Below, piece by piece: positions 17,753-26,397 of a DNA stretch of 35,423 bases. This DNA is from Clostridia bacterium (GTDB taxonomy: Bacteria; Bacillota; Clostridia; Lachnospirales; JAKSVV01): assembly GCA_024407775.1 (NCBI GenBank), contig JAKSVV010000004.1, positions 1 to 35,423 on the forward strand, written 5' to 3'. The first letter of the stretch is position 1, and every line of letters starts with the position of its first letter. The position numbers and the translations under genes are program-made. The notes under the pieces were generated by a model. It had not been told where the DNA came from, did not search any database, and saw nothing but the letters and a program-made list of their open reading frames with translations.

Positions 17753-18367
17753 ATGAAAAATTTAAGCGAATTATCTGACGAAGAATTAATAGAAAAAATC
17801 AAGGAAAGTGACTCCCAGAGCGCGATTAGTGAACTTTTTAGTAGGTATAAAACCACTCTAAAAACTAAATGTCGTGCTTTTTCTAGTTCGAGACTAGACT
17901 ATGAGGATCTTCTCCAAGAGGGAATGATAGGGCTATATACTGCCATAAAAAACTTCAATCCCGTATCTGGAGTGCCTTTCAACTTTTTTGCTAAGGTTTG
18001 TATAAACCATCAGATCCTAACAGCTCTAAGATCAAATAATCGCAAAAAGAATGAAATTTTAAACAATTCTCTATCACTTAATCAAACCATAGGACAGGAA
18101 TCAAATTCTGACCATAAGGTTGAATTTATATCATTAATCTCTAGTAAGTCTAGAAATCCTGAAAATATACTTCTAGACACAGAAAGGTATCATATCATAA
18201 AAGAGCACCTAAGTCCACTAGAAAATCAAATATTTTTGCTTTTTTTAGATGGATATACATACTTTGATATATCAAAGGAATTAAAAGTGACTAAAAAGAG
18301 CGTAGATAATGCATTGCAAAGGATTAAAAAGAAATTATCTGATGTTAAAGAATTAAAATATGATTAA
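17753..18367 (+). CDS. SigH-like (sigma-70 family) RNA polymerase sigma factor
   Basis: This 204-aa protein has the two-domain layout of alternative sigma factors of the SigH (sigma-30) group. Region 2 spans ~18-95 with the core-binding signature YEDLLQEGMIGLYTAIKNF and then VPFNFFAKVCINHQILTALR. Region 4 lies at ~140-200, with LSPLENQIFLLFLDGYTYFD and ISKELKVTKKSVDNALQRIK as its helix-turn-helix. Unlike ECF factors it has the longer region-2 pattern of SigH. It is the only plus-strand gene between 6 and 18 kb, monocistronic, with its own promoter and terminator, and divergent from the envelope-like locus. Its regulon, stress, competence or surface genes, cannot be read from here. Confidence 0.85.
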   Translation: MKNLSELSDEELIEKIKESDSQSAISELFSRYKTTLKTKCRAFSSSRLDYEDLLQEGMIGLYTAIKNFNPVSGVPFNFFAKVCINHQILTALRSNNRKKNEILNNSLSLNQTIGQESNSDHKVEFISLISSKSRNPENILLDTERYHIIKEHLSPLENQIFLLFLDGYTYFDISKELKVTKKSVDNALQRIKKKLSDVKELKYD

Positions 18368-18930: not shown

Positions 18931-21900
18931 TTATATATTTGATATTACATTACTATCTCCTAGTAAGAATCCTAGTTCTTTTAATAGTTCTTCACATACT
19001 CTTATTTTTAATTTAGGATATCTTGTTTTTCCATCATCCTTTGAGTATATTTCACAAGTACTATTACCTTCATATCTTTGCATTATCTTTTTTATATTAT
19101 CTAGCATATTTTTATCACTTACTGTATCTACTTTTAATGTTAATGCACTCATCACCACTTCATTATCTAGTGATTTTATCTCCTCTGCTATTAGCTGCAC
19201 ATTATCTTCTTTAACTTGGCATCTAGCTCTTAGCATTATTACATCTTCTTCTCTTAACAAGTGTTTATATCTATCAAATGTTTTAGGGAATACTATAACT
19301 TCTATTTCTCCTGACATATCTTCTAGTTTTATAAAACACATCATTGAATTATTTTTTGTTACTTTTAAATTTACGTTATTTATTATTCCTATCACTAGTA
19401 CTTCTTTATTATCTTTTATTTCATACTCATCAGTCTCTTCATTTTTCATTAAGATATCAGATATACTTATTGCATTATATTTACTTATTGCTTTTTCATA
19501 TTCTTTTAGAGGATGACCTGATACATATAGTCCTAGCAATTCTTTTTCCATAAGTAATTTTATTTTATCATCTAGTTCATCAAGTTCTGGGAAGTCATCT
19601 GTTGCTTCTTTTTCTTTTTCTTCATCACTTAGTCCTATGCTAAATAAATCTAATTGTCCATCTAGTTCTCTTTTTGCTTTAGCTAGGAGTCTATCATAAA
19701 CTAACATGTATACTGCAAGGTATTGTGATCTATGTCCTCCCATATTATCGAATGCTCCAACTTTTATTAAGTTCTCTATGGCTTTTTTAGATATATTATA
19801 CTTAAGCATTCTTTCTATGAAATCTGTTAATGATTTAAATAAACCATTTTCTTCTCTTTCATTTTGAAGGTTAATAATTATATCCATACCTATGCCTTTT
19901 ATTTGTGATAAGGCATAACTTATTGAGTCATCTTTATTTGCATTAAATAAATATCCAGATTCATTAACATCTGGTGCTTTTACTTCAATACCCGCTCTTC
20001 TTGCCTCTTCTATGTAGTAAGCTGTCATACCTTGATTTGCCATACCACTTGATATTAGTGAAGCAAAGAATTCACTCTTATAGTAATATTTTAAATAAGC
20101 AGTTTGGTATGCTACAAATGAGTAACATGCGGAGTGTGATTTATTAAATGCATAGTTAGCAAAATCTATCATCTTATCAAAAATCAATTCTGCTGTTTCT
20201 TTATCTATGCCATTATTAATTGCACCTTTTATTCCTCTAGTTTCATCACCATAAACGAATGTTTCTTTTTCTTTTATCATAACATCCATTTTCTTTTTAC
20301 TCATTGCTCTTCTTATAAGGTCACTATCACCTAGGCTATATCCAGCAAGTGTCTTTAAGATTTGCATTACTTGTTCTTGATAAACTATTACTCCGTTAGT
20401 ATCCTTTAATACTGGGATTAATAATTCATGATCATACTTAATAGATGATGGATTATTTTTACCCTTAATATAGTTTGGAATAAAATCCATAGGTCCTGGT
20501 CTATATAAACTTATTCCTGCTATGATATCTTCAAGTCTTTCTGGTTTTAGTTCTTTCATGAACTGAGTCATGCCTTTACTTTCAAGTTGGAATACTCCAG
20601 ATGTATCTCCCTTTGATATCATGTCATAAACATTCTTATCATTCATATCTATTTTTCTAATATCAAGATCTATATTTTTATTTTCTTTAATACTCTTAAT
20701 AGTATTATTAATAACAGATAAATTTCTAAGACCTAAGAAGTCCATCTTTAATAGTCCTAGTTCTTCGATGGTTGTCATGTTAAACTCTGTTACTACGAAA
20801 TCTTCACTTTTTGATAGTGGTACATATTCGTATATTGGTTTATCACATATGACTACACCCGCAGCATGAGTTGAAGCATGACGTGGTAGTCCTTCTAGTT
20901 TTTTAGCAGTATCTATTATTTCTCTAACTTTTTCATCTTGTAAGTATAGAGTTTTAAGTTCACTATTTTCTTCAAGTGCTTTATCTATTGTTACGTGCAT
21001 TTCATAAGGAATCATTTTAGCAATGATATCAACATCGCTATAAGGCACGTCAAGTACTCTTCCTACATCACGAATAACTTGCTTTGCTGACATAGTTCCG
21101 AATGTAACAATTTGTGATACACATTCACTGCCATATTTTTTAGTAACATACTCTATTACTTCGCCTCTTCTTATGTTACAAAAGTCAACGTCTATATCTG
21201 GCATAGATACTCTTTCTGGATTTAAGAATCTTTCAAAAAGTAAGTTATACTTAATAGGGTCAACTTCAGTGATGTTAAGAAGATAACTAACAAGTGAACC
21301 TGCAGCTGATCCACGGCCAGGTCCTACTGGTATGTCATTATCCTTAGCAAATTTAATAAAGTCCCATACAATTAAAAAGTAATCTGTAAATCCCATTTGG
21401 TTTATGGTATCTAATTCATACTTTAATCTATTTTTCAAATCATTTATATCATAGATGTATTCGTTATCATTTGTTTTAAAATATTTATCTAATCCTATTA
21501 AACATAATTTTTCTAATAGTTCTTTGGATTCTAGTTTGCCATATTTTTTAATGTCATCATCATTCATCTCGTATCTTGGTAATTTATATTTACCAAACTC
21601 TATTTCAACGTTACATCTAGCTGCTATCTTATTTGTATTTTCTAATGCTTCATAACCTATTTCATCATCAAAGATCATAGTCATTTCATCATAGTTTTTA
21701 AAATAAAAAGCATTTTGTTCTAGTCTCATTCTATCTTCATCAGTTATTTTTTTACCTGTTTGAATACACATAAGAATTTCTTGTGTCTTATAGTCATCAC
21801 GTGTTAGATAGTGAGAGTCACATGTAGCTACTAGTGGTATATCAAGTTCTGTGCTCATCTTCTTTAATATTTCATTAACCTTAGTTTGGTTAGGAACAGT

Positions 21901-22440
21901 ATTAGCTTGCATTTCTAGATAAAAATTATTTTCACCAAAAATATCTTTATAATCTAGTGCTACTTTTTTAGCCATATCTATGTCACCAGATAATATAACT
22001 CTAGCTACTTCACCTGATAGACATGCTGATAAGGCTATAATTCCTTCGTGATACTTTCTTAACATTTCTTTATTCATACGAGGTTTATAGTAATAACCAT
22101 CTTTATGAGATATGGATACAAGTTTCATTAGGTTCTTATAACCTATTTCATTTTCTGCAAGCAAAATAAGATGGTAACGTTCTTCATTTAAGCCGCCATC
22201 TTTATCTAAAATATCTCCATTTATAACATATGCTTCTACTCCTAGGATAGGTTTTATACCTTCCTTTTTACATTCTTTGTAGAAGTCAATAACTCCGTAC
22301 ATAACTCCATGATCAGTTATAGCAATGCTATCCATGCCAAATTCCTTAGCACGAGCTACTAAATCAGTGACTTTTGAAGCACCATCTAGCAAACTATATT
22401 GTGTATGTACATGTAAATGTGTGAAATTTTTTTCTTGCAT
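18931..22440 (-). CDS. dnaE: DNA polymerase III alpha subunit, DnaE type
   Basis: This 1169-aa C-family replicative polymerase starts at 22440: the ATG 24 nt earlier overlaps the -10 box and GGAG lies correctly for the downstream Met. Domains in order: an N-terminal PHP domain (HLHVHTQYSLLDGA, residues ~8-21), the polymerase core with GPGRGSAAGSLVSYLL (~370) and the catalytic PDIDVDF aspartates (~416-422), a fingers/helix-hairpin-helix region (LSQIKGIGMDI), and a C-terminal OB fold (~970-1060, SGEIEVIVFPKTFDRY). Low-GC Firmicutes usually also have PolC; this gene is the second, primer-extending type or the only alpha subunit, not decidable here. Confidence 0.96.
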   Translation of the reverse strand: MQEKNFTHLHVHTQYSLLDGASKVTDLVARAKEFGMDSIAITDHGVMYGVIDFYKECKKEGIKPILGVEAYVINGDILDKDGGLNEERYHLILLAENEIGYKNLMKLVSISHKDGYYYKPRMNKEMLRKYHEGIIALSACLSGEVARVILSGDIDMAKKVALDYKDIFGENNFYLEMQANTVPNQTKVNEILKKMSTELDIPLVATCDSHYLTRDDYKTQEILMCIQTGKKITDEDRMRLEQNAFYFKNYDEMTMIFDDEIGYEALENTNKIAARCNVEIEFGKYKLPRYEMNDDDIKKYGKLESKELLEKLCLIGLDKYFKTNDNEYIYDINDLKNRLKYELDTINQMGFTDYFLIVWDFIKFAKDNDIPVGPGRGSAAGSLVSYLLNITEVDPIKYNLLFERFLNPERVSMPDIDVDFCNIRRGEVIEYVTKKYGSECVSQIVTFGTMSAKQVIRDVGRVLDVPYSDVDIIAKMIPYEMHVTIDKALEENSELKTLYLQDEKVREIIDTAKKLEGLPRHASTHAAGVVICDKPIYEYVPLSKSEDFVVTEFNMTTIEELGLLKMDFLGLRNLSVINNTIKSIKENKNIDLDIRKIDMNDKNVYDMISKGDTSGVFQLESKGMTQFMKELKPERLEDIIAGISLYRPGPMDFIPNYIKGKNNPSSIKYDHELLIPVLKDTNGVIVYQEQVMQILKTLAGYSLGDSDLIRRAMSKKKMDVMIKEKETFVYGDETRGIKGAINNGIDKETAELIFDKMIDFANYAFNKSHSACYSFVAYQTAYLKYYYKSEFFASLISSGMANQGMTAYYIEEARRAGIEVKAPDVNESGYLFNANKDDSISYALSQIKGIGMDIIINLQNEREENGLFKSLTDFIERMLKYNISKKAIENLIKVGAFDNMGGHRSQYLAVYMLVYDRLLAKAKRELDGQLDLFSIGLSDEEKEKEATDDFPELDELDDKIKLLMEKELLGLYVSGHPLKEYEKAISKYNAISISDILMKNEETDEYEIKDNKEVLVIGIINNVNLKVTKNNSMMCFIKLEDMSGEIEVIVFPKTFDRYKHLLREEDVIMLRARCQVKEDNVQLIAEEIKSLDNEVVMSALTLKVDTVSDKNMLDNIKKIMQRYEGNSTCEIYSKDDGKTRYPKLKIRVCEELLKELGFLLGDSNVISNI

Positions 22441-22462
22441 AACCTTCTCCAATTTTTTCTTC

Positions 22463-22490
22463 ATTATAGCATATAATTTGCCAAAATCAA
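22463..22490 (-). promoter_or_regulatory. Promoter of dnaE
   Basis: On the minus strand TTGATT (22490-22485), 16 nt, TATAAT (22468-22463). The predicted start (~22456) falls downstream of the first in-frame ATG, which is why the downstream Met is preferred. The promoter is divergent from the sRNA promoter at 22560. Confidence 0.7.
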
Positions 22491-22559: not shown

Positions 22560-22588
22560 TTGACATAAAGATATAGCTGATATATAAT
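22560..22588 (+). promoter_or_regulatory. Near-perfect consensus promoter of the candidate sRNA
   Basis: TTGACA (22560-22565), exactly 17 nt, TATAAT (22583-22588): full consensus at both hexamers, the best promoter in the window. Predicted start near 22595. An 8-nt GTTGGTTG (22555-22562) overlaps the -35 and is complementary to CAACCAAC in the first transcribed bases. Confidence 0.85.
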
Positions 22589-22594
22589 TAGGGC

Positions 22595-22690
22595 ATACCC
22601 AACCAACCAACACACACTCACCTTGTGTAGCAGTTAATAATATGATTTATATCATATAGATTGTATTATTAACTGCTACACATTTTTTTG
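22595..22690 (+). ncRNA. Candidate small RNA, ~95 nt
   Basis: A full-consensus promoter is followed at the right distance by a short stretch with no usable start codon and ribosome site, ending in a strong terminator. The 5' part (22595-22623) is C/A-rich and contains ACCCAACCAACCAACACACA and then CUCACCUU, so it should be single-stranded and could pair with G-rich ribosome-binding regions. The 3' part is a 19-bp perfect stem (22624-22642 with 22664-22682) capped by a small inner hairpin, then seven U. No Rfam family is recognised. It may be a trans-acting riboregulator, which is inference. A second small fold (ACACA with UGUGU) could compete with the stem base. Confidence 0.6.
22624..22689 (+). 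terminator. Intrinsic terminator of the candidate sRNA
   Basis: The perfect 19-bp stem (UGUGUAGCAGUUAAUAAUA with its complement) and the run of seven T at 22683-22689 match a Rho-independent terminator on the plus strand; the minus strand has no T run after the stem. The region 22690-22909 beyond it is AT-rich with nested complementary segments and no ORF. Confidence 0.85.
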
Positions 22691-22909
22691 TGACAAGCTA
22701 TAAATCACTTTTCTAATGTTTTATATTGTTACTAATAATTTATAAGATGCTAATAAATATATTTAATAAATATATTTTATATAAGGTAAAGCACAATGAT
22801 ACTTATAAATTATACCAAACCATATAGCTTATCATAAATTAATGTGCGAGAACAATGTATTATAAATGTATTTATATACATGTGTGTTTAATTATACTAT
22901 AGAATAGAA

Positions 22910-22943
22910 AAAGAGGATTTACTTTTGGTAAATCCTCTTTTTT
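22910..22943. terminator. Bidirectional terminator after the 80-aa XRE-like gene
   Basis: AAAGAGGATTTAC (left) pairs with GTAAATCCTCTTT (right) around a 5-nt loop, with T runs on both strands. It ends the minus-strand 80-aa gene 35 nt downstream of its stop and would stop any plus-strand transcript from the sRNA side. Confidence 0.85.
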
Positions 22944-22977: not shown

Positions 22978-23220
22978 TTAAAATTTCATAAATGATCCCA
23001 TCTTTCCATTCATATCAGGGTCTGGCATACCAGCTTGCTTATAGATACTCATAAGTAAGTTAACATCTTTATCAGATGGTTTAACCATATTGTTTTCTAT
23101 AGCCATAAGGTTAATATCATGACCTACTCCTCTAGCTATTGATTCTACAACAGGAATTTCAAGTCCTGCATTTTCTCTTGCTTCTTTGAAGTCTATTTTA
23201 AACATTGATTTATATTTCAT
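22978..23220 (-). CDS. XRE-like mini-protein (80 aa), paralogue of the 81-aa gene at 26152
   Basis: No named family. The N-terminal KIDFKEARENAGLEI matches KVDFKTARENAGMSK of the 26152 gene, and both continue with a possible second helix, an IE/VEE stretch and a VNLLMSIYKQAGMPD / VDTLCGMYGIPD end. This resembles a single helix-turn-helix unit of the Cro/CI type, with ARENAGL as helix 1-2 and the MAIENNMV part where XRE proteins have IERG. DNA binding is inference. The C-terminus is Gly/Met-rich. It has its own promoter and terminator. An AGGTATAAT-type site with GGAGG precedes the ATG. Confidence 0.75.
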   Translation of the reverse strand: MKYKSMFKIDFKEARENAGLEIPVVESIARGVGHDINLMAIENNMVKPSDKDVNLLMSIYKQAGMPDPDMNGKMGSFMKF

Positions 23221-23434: not shown

Positions 23435-23464
23435 TTGACAAAAATAGAAGATGAGATATATAAT
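23435..23464 (+). promoter_or_regulatory. Promoter of the two-gene small-protein operon
   Basis: TTGACA (23435-23440), 18 nt, TATAAT (23459-23464). The leader (~23471-23543) contains an AAAGC/GCTTT hairpin (23517-23531) ending right at the AGGA ribosome site, so ribosome access may depend on its folding. Confidence 0.75.
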
Positions 23465-23543
23465 TCAGTTTAATAATTTGTGCAAATATTGCATACTGTA
23501 ACGTATTAACTTTTTTAAAGCATTGGGCTTTAGGACGTATGTT

Positions 23544-23867
23544 ATGATTGAAAATTTTAAAGAGGCTAAGAAGTTAGCAAAGAAAAAGTACAAAGAAGAT
23601 CTTAAGAAGATTAAGTTTTGGAAGAAGACTAAAAAGCTTTTTGAAAAGAGCAGGAAGAATAATGACATATTAGTATGTTTCGCACTTCCTTTAAATATGG
23701 AAGATGAAATTAACATTGCATCAGAGTATGCAGCGCTTTATAACTATGAACTTACTACAAAGATTAAAGAAGATTATGACTTTGTTCTTGAATTCAAAGA
23801 AGCTGGTAAGATTAACACAATTAGGAAACTTAATGATGCATTAGCTAGAGGCGAGTTAACGCTTTAG
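23544..23867 (+). CDS. Small unknown protein, family member A (107 aa)
   Basis: The start at 23544 follows AGGA (23532-23535) by 8 nt; an upstream TTG lacks a ribosome site. The N-terminal ~45 residues are a Lys-rich helix (FKEAKKLAKKKYKEDLKKIK, then FWKKTKKLFEKS), followed by a hydrophobic strand (DILVCFALPL), a helix ending ASEYAALYNYEL and a last strand (YDFVLEFKEAG). The genes at 23880, 25145 and 25417 share this plan, most clearly 25417 (IKFW/LKFW and ALYNYEL/KIYNYTV). No function recognised. Lys codons favour AAG. The stop TAG overlaps the ribosome site of the next gene, so translation is coupled. Confidence 0.8.
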   Translation: MIENFKEAKKLAKKKYKEDLKKIKFWKKTKKLFEKSRKNNDILVCFALPLNMEDEINIASEYAALYNYELTTKIKEDYDFVLEFKEAGKINTIRKLNDALARGELTL

Positions 23868-23879
23868 GAGGATATGGCT

Positions 23880-24164
23880 ATGTATAATAACTACGAGAAA
23901 GAAAGAAAAGAACTTTCAAAGAAGTATGAGCAGGATCTTAAAGCACTTGAAATGTTAGAGAAGATTGAACTCGAGTTCGATAAGAGAAGAAAGAATCGAG
24001 AAAAGGCATTCATCTTAAGAACAGAACTCAGGGTTTGGAATGAAGTTTGTGACTATGCAAGAACTCTTTCATTTATTGCTGATCACTATGGCTACAAGTT
24101 ATATCAGTTTGAAAAGAGTGATACTGATATCAAGTTTTTCTTTCAGGAGAGATATAACATCTAA
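23880..24164 (+). CDS. Small unknown protein, family member B (94 aa)
   Basis: The AGGAGG at 23866-23871 suits the ATG at 23880 (8 nt) better than the one at 23874 (2 nt). The N-terminal half is a charged helix (YEKERKELSKKYEQDLKALE and onward), then a hydrophobic strand (AFILRTELRV), a helix ending FIADHYGYKLYQF and a last strand (DTDIKFFFQERY). It aligns in plan with the 23544 and 25417 proteins. All three Gln codons are CAG. It ends just before the bidirectional terminator at 24225. Function unknown. Confidence 0.8.
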   Translation: MYNNYEKERKELSKKYEQDLKALEMLEKIELEFDKRRKNREKAFILRTELRVWNEVCDYARTLSFIADHYGYKLYQFEKSDTDIKFFFQERYNI

Positions 24165-24224
24165 AAGATCTAAAAAGAGAAAGAAAAACAAAACAAAAAA
24201 GAAAAAAATTTAATACTGAAAAAG

Positions 24225-24260
24225 AAAAAAACTCACAAGAATATTTCTTGTGAGTTTTTT
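24225..24260. terminator. Bidirectional terminator between convergent small genes
   Basis: AAAAAACTCACAAGAA (24225-24240) pairs with TTCTTGTGAGTTTTTT around a 3-nt loop, with T runs on both strands. It serves the 23544-24164 operon and the minus-strand 92-aa gene. An A-rich tract without features (24165-24224) precedes it. Confidence 0.9.
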
Positions 24261-24291
24261 CTTTTTAAAAAGTTTAATAAGTTTTATAAGT

Positions 24292-24570
24292 TTAATTAGG
24301 CATATCATCAATGTACCAGCGGCATGATTTATACCATCCAATTGAGTAAGATGACCTAAAGAATTCTACAACTTCTATTGCTTCATCACTTATTAAAATA
24401 TCATCAGTTGTTCTATAAATAAAGTTTTCTCCATCGAAATAGATATACTCTTCATCATCAAAGTTATTACACATAACAACCTTGTCAGCATCTTCTGATA
24501 TCTCAACAAGTAGTGATAAGAACTTATATTCTTCTTCACTTAAAAAACTTCTATACTGTTCTTTTCTCAT
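24292..24570 (-). CDS. Small unknown acidic protein (92 aa)
   Basis: The start is set at 24570, downstream of GGAGGG (spacing ~10 nt); an upstream Met is hydrophobic and lacks a ribosome site. The sequence is acidic and mixed alpha/beta: FLSEEEYKFLSLLVEIS, then a Cys-containing strand (DKVVMCNNFDDEEYIYFDG), RTTDDILISDEAIEVVEFFR, and a Trp-rich end (SIGWYKSCRWYIDDM). No family recognised, not obviously related to members A-D. Its one Gln codon is CAG, as in the neighbouring plus-strand genes. Divergent from the 24764 gene; ends at the shared terminator at 24225. Confidence 0.7.
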   Translation of the reverse strand: MRKEQYRSFLSEEEYKFLSLLVEISEDADKVVMCNNFDDEEYIYFDGENFIYRTTDDILISDEAIEVVEFFRSSYSIGWYKSCRWYIDDMPN

Positions 24571-24630
24571 GAGATTATTTCCCTCCAAAAGAATTAATAT
24601 GCATAAGTTGCACAACAGCATTACTCGTAT

Positions 24631-24659
24631 GTTATATCAAAGTTTTCTAAATTTATCAA
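24631..24659 (-). promoter_or_regulatory. Promoter of the 92-aa gene
   Basis: On the minus strand TTGATA (24659-24654), 17 nt, TATAAC (24636-24631). The -35 lies 17 bp from that of the divergent promoter at 24677. Confidence 0.7.
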
Positions 24660-24676
24660 CTAGTTATAAATTTATA

Positions 24677-24711
24677 TTGACTTTTTACCCAAACGCTAAT
24701 ATACTTTGGGT
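24677..24711 (+). promoter_or_regulatory. Promoter of the 24764-25719 operon with an ACCCAAA dyad
   Basis: TTGACT (24677-24682), 17 nt, TATACT (24700-24705). A perfect 7-bp inverted repeat, ACCCAAA (24687-24693) and TTTGGGT (24705-24711) 11 nt apart, covers the spacer and the -10 box: the typical place for a repressor operator. Confidence 0.75.
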
Positions 24712-24763
24712 GTAACTTTAGTTTTTGATTTTTTGCATATAAAAAATTAATGGAGGATATTCT

Positions 24764-25096
24764 ATGAGTAATACTTGCTTTGTACTTTTACTATTTGCAA
24801 TTATTTTCGCATTTGGATATTTATTTGTTTACCTTGATGGTAAGAAAAATAATGCTCTTCCTATCACTAAGTTTTCTGGTAAGGTTTGTCTCATTGACGC
24901 TTGTCCTGTTTACTACACACTATATTGTAGTGACAACATTGCTTCTATCACAATAAAAAGTGAAGGAGACATTAAGACATTTAAGTCATCAGCAAACATT
25001 GCTAGTAAATTAACTTGTGAGAGTGAAGGCGAATTTTTTGCAAAGGGTAATACAATCATTAAAGCAATAATTGATGGAATAGAAATCAATTATTAA
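24764..25096 (+). CDS. Unknown small protein with an N-terminal membrane helix (110 aa)
   Basis: One hydrophobic stretch at about 5-24 (CFVLLLFAIIFAFGYLFVYL) is followed by a short basic loop and an ~85-residue hydrophilic domain, probably outside the membrane, with four Cys (CLIDAC, LYCSD, LTCE). Many Ser/Ile/Thr-rich strands suggest a beta fold. No family recognised. GGAGG lies 8 nt before the ATG. First gene of a three-gene run with 25145 and 25417 (spacings 48 and 38 nt). It could be a type-1 anchored membrane protein; function not known. Confidence 0.75.
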   Translation: MSNTCFVLLLFAIIFAFGYLFVYLDGKKNNALPITKFSGKVCLIDACPVYYTLYCSDNIASITIKSEGDIKTFKSSANIASKLTCESEGEFFAKGNTIIKAIIDGIEINY

Positions 25097-25144
25097 AAAA
25101 TAATTTTAGTTTAATATTAATGGTCTCTCTAGAAGGTGATTACT

Positions 25145-25378
25145 ATGATGAAAAAGAATTTTAACAATCAGGAAGAATTCGATGCTTACTTAGCTAAGAT
25201 GTTCGAAAAGAATCAGAAGAAGAAAACTTTTGAACTCGTTGTTTCTTACACAGACTATGGCAGATTTGCTAGTTCTCAGTGGGATGCTATCAATAAAGTA
25301 GCTCGTCAGCATGGCTTTAAGGTAGTAAATGAGTTCCCTTATTTCGAAGCTGTTAAGCTTGTAATGGAAAAGTTTTAA
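25145..25378 (+). CDS. Small unknown protein, family member C (77 aa)
   Basis: The start is ATG at 25145 (or the adjacent 25148), 8 nt after AGAAGG; an in-frame GTG at 25136 lies inside the ribosome site. A short charged N-terminus (NNQEEFDAYLAKMFEKNQKK) leads to a beta-alpha-beta-like unit: FELVVSY, then SSQWDAINKVARQHGFKVV, then EAVKLVMEKF. This corresponds to the C-terminal part of members A, B and D, without their long helix. All four Gln codons are CAG. Function unknown. Confidence 0.75.
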   Translation: MMKKNFNNQEEFDAYLAKMFEKNQKKKTFELVVSYTDYGRFASSQWDAINKVARQHGFKVVNEFPYFEAVKLVMEKF

Positions 25379-25416
25379 GTAGCAACAACCCGGTTTTATT
25401 ATGAGAGGTGAAATGT

Positions 25417-25719
25417 ATGAATTTTGTTACTAACTTTAAGGACGAATTTAAAAAGGTCAAGAATGAACACAAAGAACAAATTAAAGAGTTAAAGTTTTGG
25501 CGCAGGATTAATGACAACTTACAGTATGCATATTGTGATAACACACTTGCATTTCAGATTACAGTATCAATTGAGCAGTGGAAGTATTGCACAAGTTCAG
25601 ATCTTCTTGAAAGATATGCAAAGATTTATAACTACACTGTATACCAGACTAGAGTTTTCAAAGATGACTGCGTGCTTATTGCATTTGTAACTATTAAAAG
25701 AGACGAAGAAGAGAGTTAA
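25417..25719 (+). CDS. Small unknown protein, family member D (100 aa)
   Basis: The start at 25417 lies 8 nt after AGAGG; an in-frame GTG at 25408 is part of that ribosome site. Charged N-terminal helix (FKDEFKKVKNEHKEQIKELK, then FWRRIND), a strand (TLAFQITVSI), a helix ending DLLERYAKIYNYTVY and a strand (CVLIAFVTIKR). It resembles member A most closely. Four of five Gln codons are CAG. Last gene of the run, followed by a bidirectional terminator at 25757. Function unknown. Confidence 0.8.
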   Translation: MNFVTNFKDEFKKVKNEHKEQIKELKFWRRINDNLQYAYCDNTLAFQITVSIEQWKYCTSSDLLERYAKIYNYTVYQTRVFKDDCVLIAFVTIKRDEEES

Positions 25720-25756
25720 CCATTAAGAAATTAAAAAAAGAAAAAACTAAATTAAG

Positions 25757-25798
25757 ACATAAAAAAATGTGAGCATATATGCCCACATTTTTTTATGT
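25757..25798. terminator. Bidirectional terminator between the small-gene island and rqcP
   Basis: A 15-bp stem (ACATAAAAAAATGTG at 25757-25771 with CACATTTTTTTATGT at 25784-25798) is capped by a GCAT...ATGC stem. Both strands carry T runs. It separates member D from rqcP. Confidence 0.9.
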
Positions 25799-25856: not shown

Positions 25857-26180
25857 TTAGTTTTCCACATTATCAACTCTTTTTTCCTCTAAAATTTCAT
25901 ACATTTCTTTTGCATCATCTTTTTTAGTTGATAGTTTTAAATCTGTTACTTTAAACTTTAATAAGTTGTTACCAAACTTAATAGTAACAATATCATTAAG
26001 TCTAATTTTTGAACTCGCTTTTGCATCGCGTTCGTTAACCCATACTCTATCTGTATCGCAAAAGTCTTTTGCTACACTTCTTCTTTTTATTATTCTTGAT
26101 ATCTTTAAAAATTTATCTAATCTTATGCTATCTAAATCTTCATTAGCATTCTTAGAATTTTTTGTTTGAGTATTTTTCAT
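25857..26180 (-). CDS. rqcP: S4-domain ribosome rescue factor RqcP (YabO family)
   Basis: This 107-aa protein carries an S4 RNA-binding domain (about 18-80): IRLDKFLKISRIIKRRSVAK, then VNERDAKASSKIRLNDIVTI and KFGNNLLKFKVTDL. This matches RqcP, which binds the 50S/peptidyl-tRNA interface and works with RqcH in Ala-tailing of stalled nascent chains. The N-terminus is ~17 residues longer than usual (Asn/Lys-rich), and the C-terminus acidic. The start overlaps the end of the XRE-like gene by 29 nt. GGGAG lies very close upstream. Last gene of the operon. Confidence 0.88.
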   Translation of the reverse strand: MKNTQTKNSKNANEDLDSIRLDKFLKISRIIKRRSVAKDFCDTDRVWVNERDAKASSKIRLNDIVTIKFGNNLLKFKVTDLKLSTKKDDAKEMYEILEEKRVDNVEN

Positions 26181-26397
26181 ATGCTCCCTTTCTTAAGAAG
26201 TCTGGTATACCATACATTCCGCAAAGAGTATCTACTTCTTGTTGATTAAGATATGCGTTTCCTTCTTCAACATCATCAATTGAGATATCACTAAATGATA
26301 CTTCTTTAAAAATTTGACTTGCAAGTTCTTTACTCATTCCTGCGTTTTCTCTTGCTGTTTTAAAATCAACCTTTACTACTCCATTAAATTCATCCAT
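26152..26397 (-). CDS. XRE-like mini-protein (81 aa), paralogue of the 80-aa gene at 22978
   Basis: It shares the core KVDFKTARENAGMSKELASQ with the 22978 product, and then ISIDDVEEGNAYLNQQEVDT and LCGMYGIPDFLRK. The pattern is that of one helix-turn-helix of the Cro/CI type: the ARENAGMSKELA segment resembles helices 1-2 and VEEGNAYL the place of IERG. DNA binding is inference. AGGAGG lies 6 nt before the ATG. It sits between recU (13-nt gap) and rqcP (29-nt overlap), inside what looks like a housekeeping operon. Confidence 0.75.
   Translation of the reverse strand: MDEFNGVVKVDFKTARENAGMSKELASQIFKEVSFSDISIDDVEEGNAYLNQQEVDTLCGMYGIPDFLRKGAYEKYSNKKF

Follow-up and report, generated by a model that had tools for sequence, protein, structure and literature searches.

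A 2.3-kb cassette of small paralogous genes with atypical codon usage, probably imported, in a Clostridia genome

We describe a cassette of about 2.3 kb (approximately 23435-25798) located between host genes of a Clostridia bacterium. The window, which is the whole stretch of 35,423 nucleotides analyzed here, is one contig (C59) of an assembly comprising 1.43 Mb in 124 contigs and 69.8% complete. We read the cassette as accessory, duplicated, and probably imported, with a probability of about 0.5; this figure leaves out the immunity role considered further below. In the proposed scheme, an accessory insert of 2.3 kb, made of two short units with good sigma-70-type promoters and encoding small proteins, would lie between host genes. 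Three of its proteins (A, B, and D) descend from one ancestor through old duplication. The insert would be part of a second codon class (CAG, AAG) with members across the genome, and we infer that a Clostridia-like donor or pool of genes probably supplied it by horizontal transfer.

Layout of the cassette and its flanks

The cassette consists of two units on the + strand. The first unit starts with a perfect sigma-70-type promoter found by the promoter scan (P1, TTGACA-18-TATAAT, 23435-23464, +), continues with A (107 aa, pI 9.3, 23544-23867, +) and B (96 aa, near-neutral pI, 23874-24164, +), and closes with a bidirectional terminator-like hairpin (24226-24260, both strands). The second unit has a promoter-like site with 10 of 12 matches (P2, TTGACT-17-TATACT, 24677-24705, +), followed by E (110 aa, with a hydrophobic N-terminal stretch, 24764-25096, +), C (77 aa, pI 9.2, 25145-25378, +), D (100 aa, near-neutral pI, 25417-25719, +), and a terminator-like hairpin at the island end (25757-25798, scan match on the - strand). 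Between the two units, F, an acidic ORF of 95 aa (pI 4.1, 24292-24579), is encoded on the opposite strand.

The four ORFs of the first-pass annotation, A to D, were found on the + strand with start codons and Shine-Dalgarno-like sequences, the start of B being at 23874. Its claim of tight spacing and coupled starts holds for A and B, as B starts 6 nt past the A stop and an AGGAGG overlaps that stop codon; it does not hold for the set, because C follows B at a distance of 1 kb. The interval between B and C contains F and then E, both absent from that annotation. The terminators proposed around the genes were recovered as terminator-like hairpins at 22907-22943, 24226-24260, and 25757-25798, and the terminator scan returned 6 sites against 1.1 expected. 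Perfect promoters are rare, with 14 in 595 kb of the genome, and promoter-like sites overall are not above chance (22 vs 28.7).

One flank of the island is dnaE (18931-22464, -), and the other is a - strand run of S4-domain, HTH-like, recU, acpS, and clpC genes. The S4 domain and RecU were assigned by Pfam, and dnaE, acpS, and clpC were recognized from their sequences. An S10-Clostridia leader and the best RecU matches, which come from Epulopiscium and other Clostridia at about 55% identity, assign the host to Clostridia, with a probable position close to Lachnospirales.

Further features were observed in these surroundings. Two HTH-like paralogues of 80 aa with host-type codons flank the island (22978-23220 and 26152-26397, both -); they share 31% identity, their score was reached by 0 of 1000 shuffles, and the latter has a weak PHROG match to a transcription regulator (E 2.7e-4). 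A candidate small RNA of about 100 nt lies at 22560-22692 (+), where a perfect promoter (TTGACA-17-TATAAT) precedes a long hairpin (22624-22682) with a T run after it. Its 5' part is single-stranded and contains many ACC repeats, and its predicted fold has -36.5 kcal/mol (z -10.7). This candidate had no match in Rfam, and the order-wide search returned short pieces only, mostly of the AT-rich hairpin. In addition, a 204-aa ORF (17753-18367, +) resembles a sigma-70-family factor by eye and is mildly atypical in codon usage (CAG 3/7, AAG 8/22).

Relationships among the small proteins

A, B, and D are shown by sequence comparison to be diverged paralogues of one ancestor, separated by old duplication. 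None of 1000 composition shuffles reached the local alignment score of A-B, A-D, or B-D (z of 10.2, 10.5, and 5.7), and the copies are 20-30% identical. Against the whole of its own genome, D matched only itself and A (E 4e-5), and A matched itself, D (2e-4), and B (0.003). The first-pass annotation had placed A to D in one family; this stands for A, B, and D and fails for C by sequence, as 469 of 1000 shuffles reached the score of C with A. Its statement that A and D are the closest pair is not upheld, since the pair ties with A-B (scores 95 and 100).

There is an even chance that C is unrelated, so that the four proteins would be a family of three plus a bystander gene. C fails every sequence test: besides the shuffles, it fell outside the top 15 of the A+B+D HMM search, and in hhalign with the A/B/D profile it ranked 22 among 150 sequences of similar size. 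A match of the A1 profile to C in its own genome was discarded as circular, C itself being one row of A1. The structure models argue in the other direction. The AlphaFold model of D (three-sequence alignment; pLDDT 85.7, pTM 0.75) has the order H7-14, H19-40, E45-51, H52-59, H63-70, E73-81, E85-92, and the independent model of C, made with no alignment (pLDDT 84.0, pTM 0.71), has H9-22, E28-34, H43-55, E58-66, E69-76. Once the split second helix of D is merged and its extra N-terminal helix set aside, both follow H-E-H-E-E. Their displayed Foldseek PDB lists have 14 entries in common; none of these is significant, and the arrangement is generic. On these models, C may share its fold with the A/B/D family.

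The search for relatives used different members, or a profile, for each collection, and the collection scans rely on short peptide patterns that reach mainly close relatives. A-D had no credible match in Pfam, PHROGs, NCBIfam, or PADLOC, and BFVD gave no significant match. No convincing relative was found in viral contigs (searched with the profile, D, and C), phages (D), plasmids (A), genome contigs (D), 295 genomes of the order (D), or 391 genomes of the class (profile A1), nor for the island proteins among PDB sequences and folds. Several weak hits were rejected. Matches of D in 30 other genomes of the order (E 0.002-0.05) were mostly partial or in stop-containing frames and were attributed to chance, as were five other weak partial matches in the class-genome profile search (E 0.002-0.007), of which four fall within larger ORFs. 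The best match of the PDB profile search, Csm6 (E 0.056), was not credited. E matched weakly within a surface-type protein of 341 aa and a frame full of stops; these matches were rejected, and F yielded no relative.

No other member of the host's genus or family is represented in the collections searched, which contain almost nothing of its lineage. Given this and the short-pattern scans, "orphan" is used here in the sense of "not found in the collections searched". We read the island as an ORFan array of an ordinary sort, restricted to its lineage, and A, B, and D as a new orphan family of the ordinary kind, with three sure members and no outside relative in those collections.

Codon usage and the origin of the cassette

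In A-D, 11 of 12 glutamine codons are CAG and 37 of 55 lysine codons are AAG, compared with 8/224 and 154/957 in the 24 other ORFs of the window, in agreement with the CAG preference and frequent AAG reported by the first-pass annotation. It had named the same CAG preference across the genome as one of the outcomes that would refute it. To check this, we used a genome sample of 61 stretches (595 kb, about 42% of the assembly, window included), in which the 304 ORFs of at least 200 codons carry 307 CAG among 2979 glutamine codons (10%) and 2450 AAG among 12129 lysine codons; A-D thus stay atypical. The hypergeometric P values, 4e-13 (CAG) and 5e-16 (AAG) against the window and 1e-10 and 5e-14 against the genome sample, are optimistic, as they treat codons as independent and set small genes against longer ones. 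E uses AAG in 6 of 10 lysine codons, and both E and F hold too few diagnostic codons for a firm class assignment.

Other loci share the codon bias. CAG makes up at least half of the glutamine codons in 42 of the 367 ORFs with at least three of them, counted on a mechanical longest-first list of which a few entries may be non-genes. These ORFs occur singly or in small clusters scattered among normal genes, which makes the island one of many patches of the second class. The class is commoner in small ORFs (11/52) than in large ones (16/191), and its members include a second RNase R-type gene, ClpP, a PreP-like M16 peptidase, large surface-type proteins, and small orphans. The same-strand neighbors of CAG-type genes are mostly CAA-type (17/26), which led us to reject a strand or regional effect, and contaminating contigs were rejected because CAG genes adjoin normal genes on the same contigs.

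An alternative for the origin is a native, lineage-specific orphan cluster. It supposes that the CAG/AAG class comprises the host's own young or weakly selected genes and that A, B, and D were duplicated within the lineage. Consistent with it, we found no donor of the island genes and no mobility gene, tRNA, long direct repeat, or att-like repeat at the island; the class is widespread (42/367 ORFs) and includes the sole ClpP copy of the 595-kb sample, and the collections contain hardly any genomes of the host lineage. However, the CAG fraction per ORF has two peaks instead of a gradient, the majority of ORFs being close to 0 and a small set close to 1, and near-exclusive CAG is not an easy outcome of relaxed selection within a single genome. 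Two adjacent RNase R-type paralogues (L162:82-2226 and L162:2500-4449) also speak against it, being 38% identical with opposite usage (CAG 0/12 and 19/19). The CAG copy of this pair may have been acquired horizontally next to the native gene. We consider a native cluster rather unlikely.

Import is the better explanation of the second codon class. The placement of class members singly among normal same-strand genes was counted in its favor. In the RecU set, CAG often accounts for at least half of the glutamine codons of Clostridia with 35-45% G+C, so a donor pool of this kind is plausible. The first-pass annotation had suggested imported cassettes, perhaps derived from a phage or plasmid. The atypical codon usage against a genome with 10% CAG keeps the import part tenable, even though the bias is widespread; the phage or plasmid source found no support, with no significant match in PHROGs, phages, plasmids, viral contigs, or BFVD.

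Tandem paralogues elsewhere in the genome were also considered. The AAG class is over-represented among genes that form tandem paralogue pairs (10/27 vs 32/349, Fisher P 2e-4), a lead rather than a test, since the 0.45 cut-off was chosen post hoc and paired genes are non-independent. A, B, and D are not counted as tandem here, as the filtered BLAST did not link them. From this enrichment, the accessory class seems to have expanded locally several times, the island being one instance. Further tandem diverged paralogues, most of them AAG-rich, were observed at L154:7939-8413, L170:1206-2333, L123:15508-19080, L145:9207-11744, and L150:5728-7285; those scanned (L154:8129, L170:1845, and L123:17959) had no Pfam match.

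Possible function and comparison with known systems

Tandem, non-identical small genes that encode small soluble alpha/beta proteins make a partner-neutralizing role of the orphan immunity type our first guess, by analogy and with about one chance in four. The proteins would be made constitutively, each binding and neutralizing a single partner variant, in the manner of orphan immunity arrays, and diverged tandem copies would broaden the range of partners. Against this guess, A-D belong to no Pfam or PADLOC family, and the 70%-complete genome has no LXG match over the cut-off and no WXG100; orphan immunity genes need neither.

A less likely reading, which we doubt, is that the small proteins bind nucleic acids or act as regulators and are expressed from strong promoters, for instance as decayed remnants of the early genes of a phage or plasmid that had integrated. 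The basic character of A and C (pI 9.3 and 9.2), the short units with strong promoters, and a weak fold likeness to Alba, the IF3 C-terminal domain, and an archaeal-type DNA-binding protein are in line with it. On the other hand, B and D are near neutral, all the fold matches are insignificant, and PHROGs, phages, plasmids, and viral contigs gave no match. It is very improbable that A-D are founders of a new small alpha/beta family, one of a number of orphan arrays that expanded independently within an imported codon class and would jointly form a novel anti-toxin or anti-phage repertoire.

As it stands, an orphan cluster is a common kind of finding. The present one is a clear-cut example of an orphan family in a genome whose codon usage divides the genes into two classes. 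Should that codon class prove to be imported, the small tandem arrays within it would be a good hunting ground for undescribed interbacterial or anti-phage functions.

Three known groups were compared with the cassette. D is loosely similar in topology to Alba, the IF3 C-terminal domain, and Top7-like alpha/beta sheets (Foldseek, TM by query length 0.43-0.52), but no E-value is significant, the arrangement is generic, and there is no sequence similarity. Firmicutes carry strings of non-identical small immunity genes, some of them orphan and without a toxin (PMC9484751). The EsaG, TsaI, and TipC arrays described there resemble the island in their small tandem genes, their non-identical copies, and the known occurrence of orphan copies; the island differs in having no sequence match to them, in the 20-30% identity of its copies, and in the interruption of the series by C, E, and F. 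There is also a likeness to the ORFan accessory genes of bacteria (PMC5575156), which are likewise short, atypical in codon usage, without a detectable relative, and located among host genes, whereas the island adds a local set of three paralogues and near-consensus promoters.
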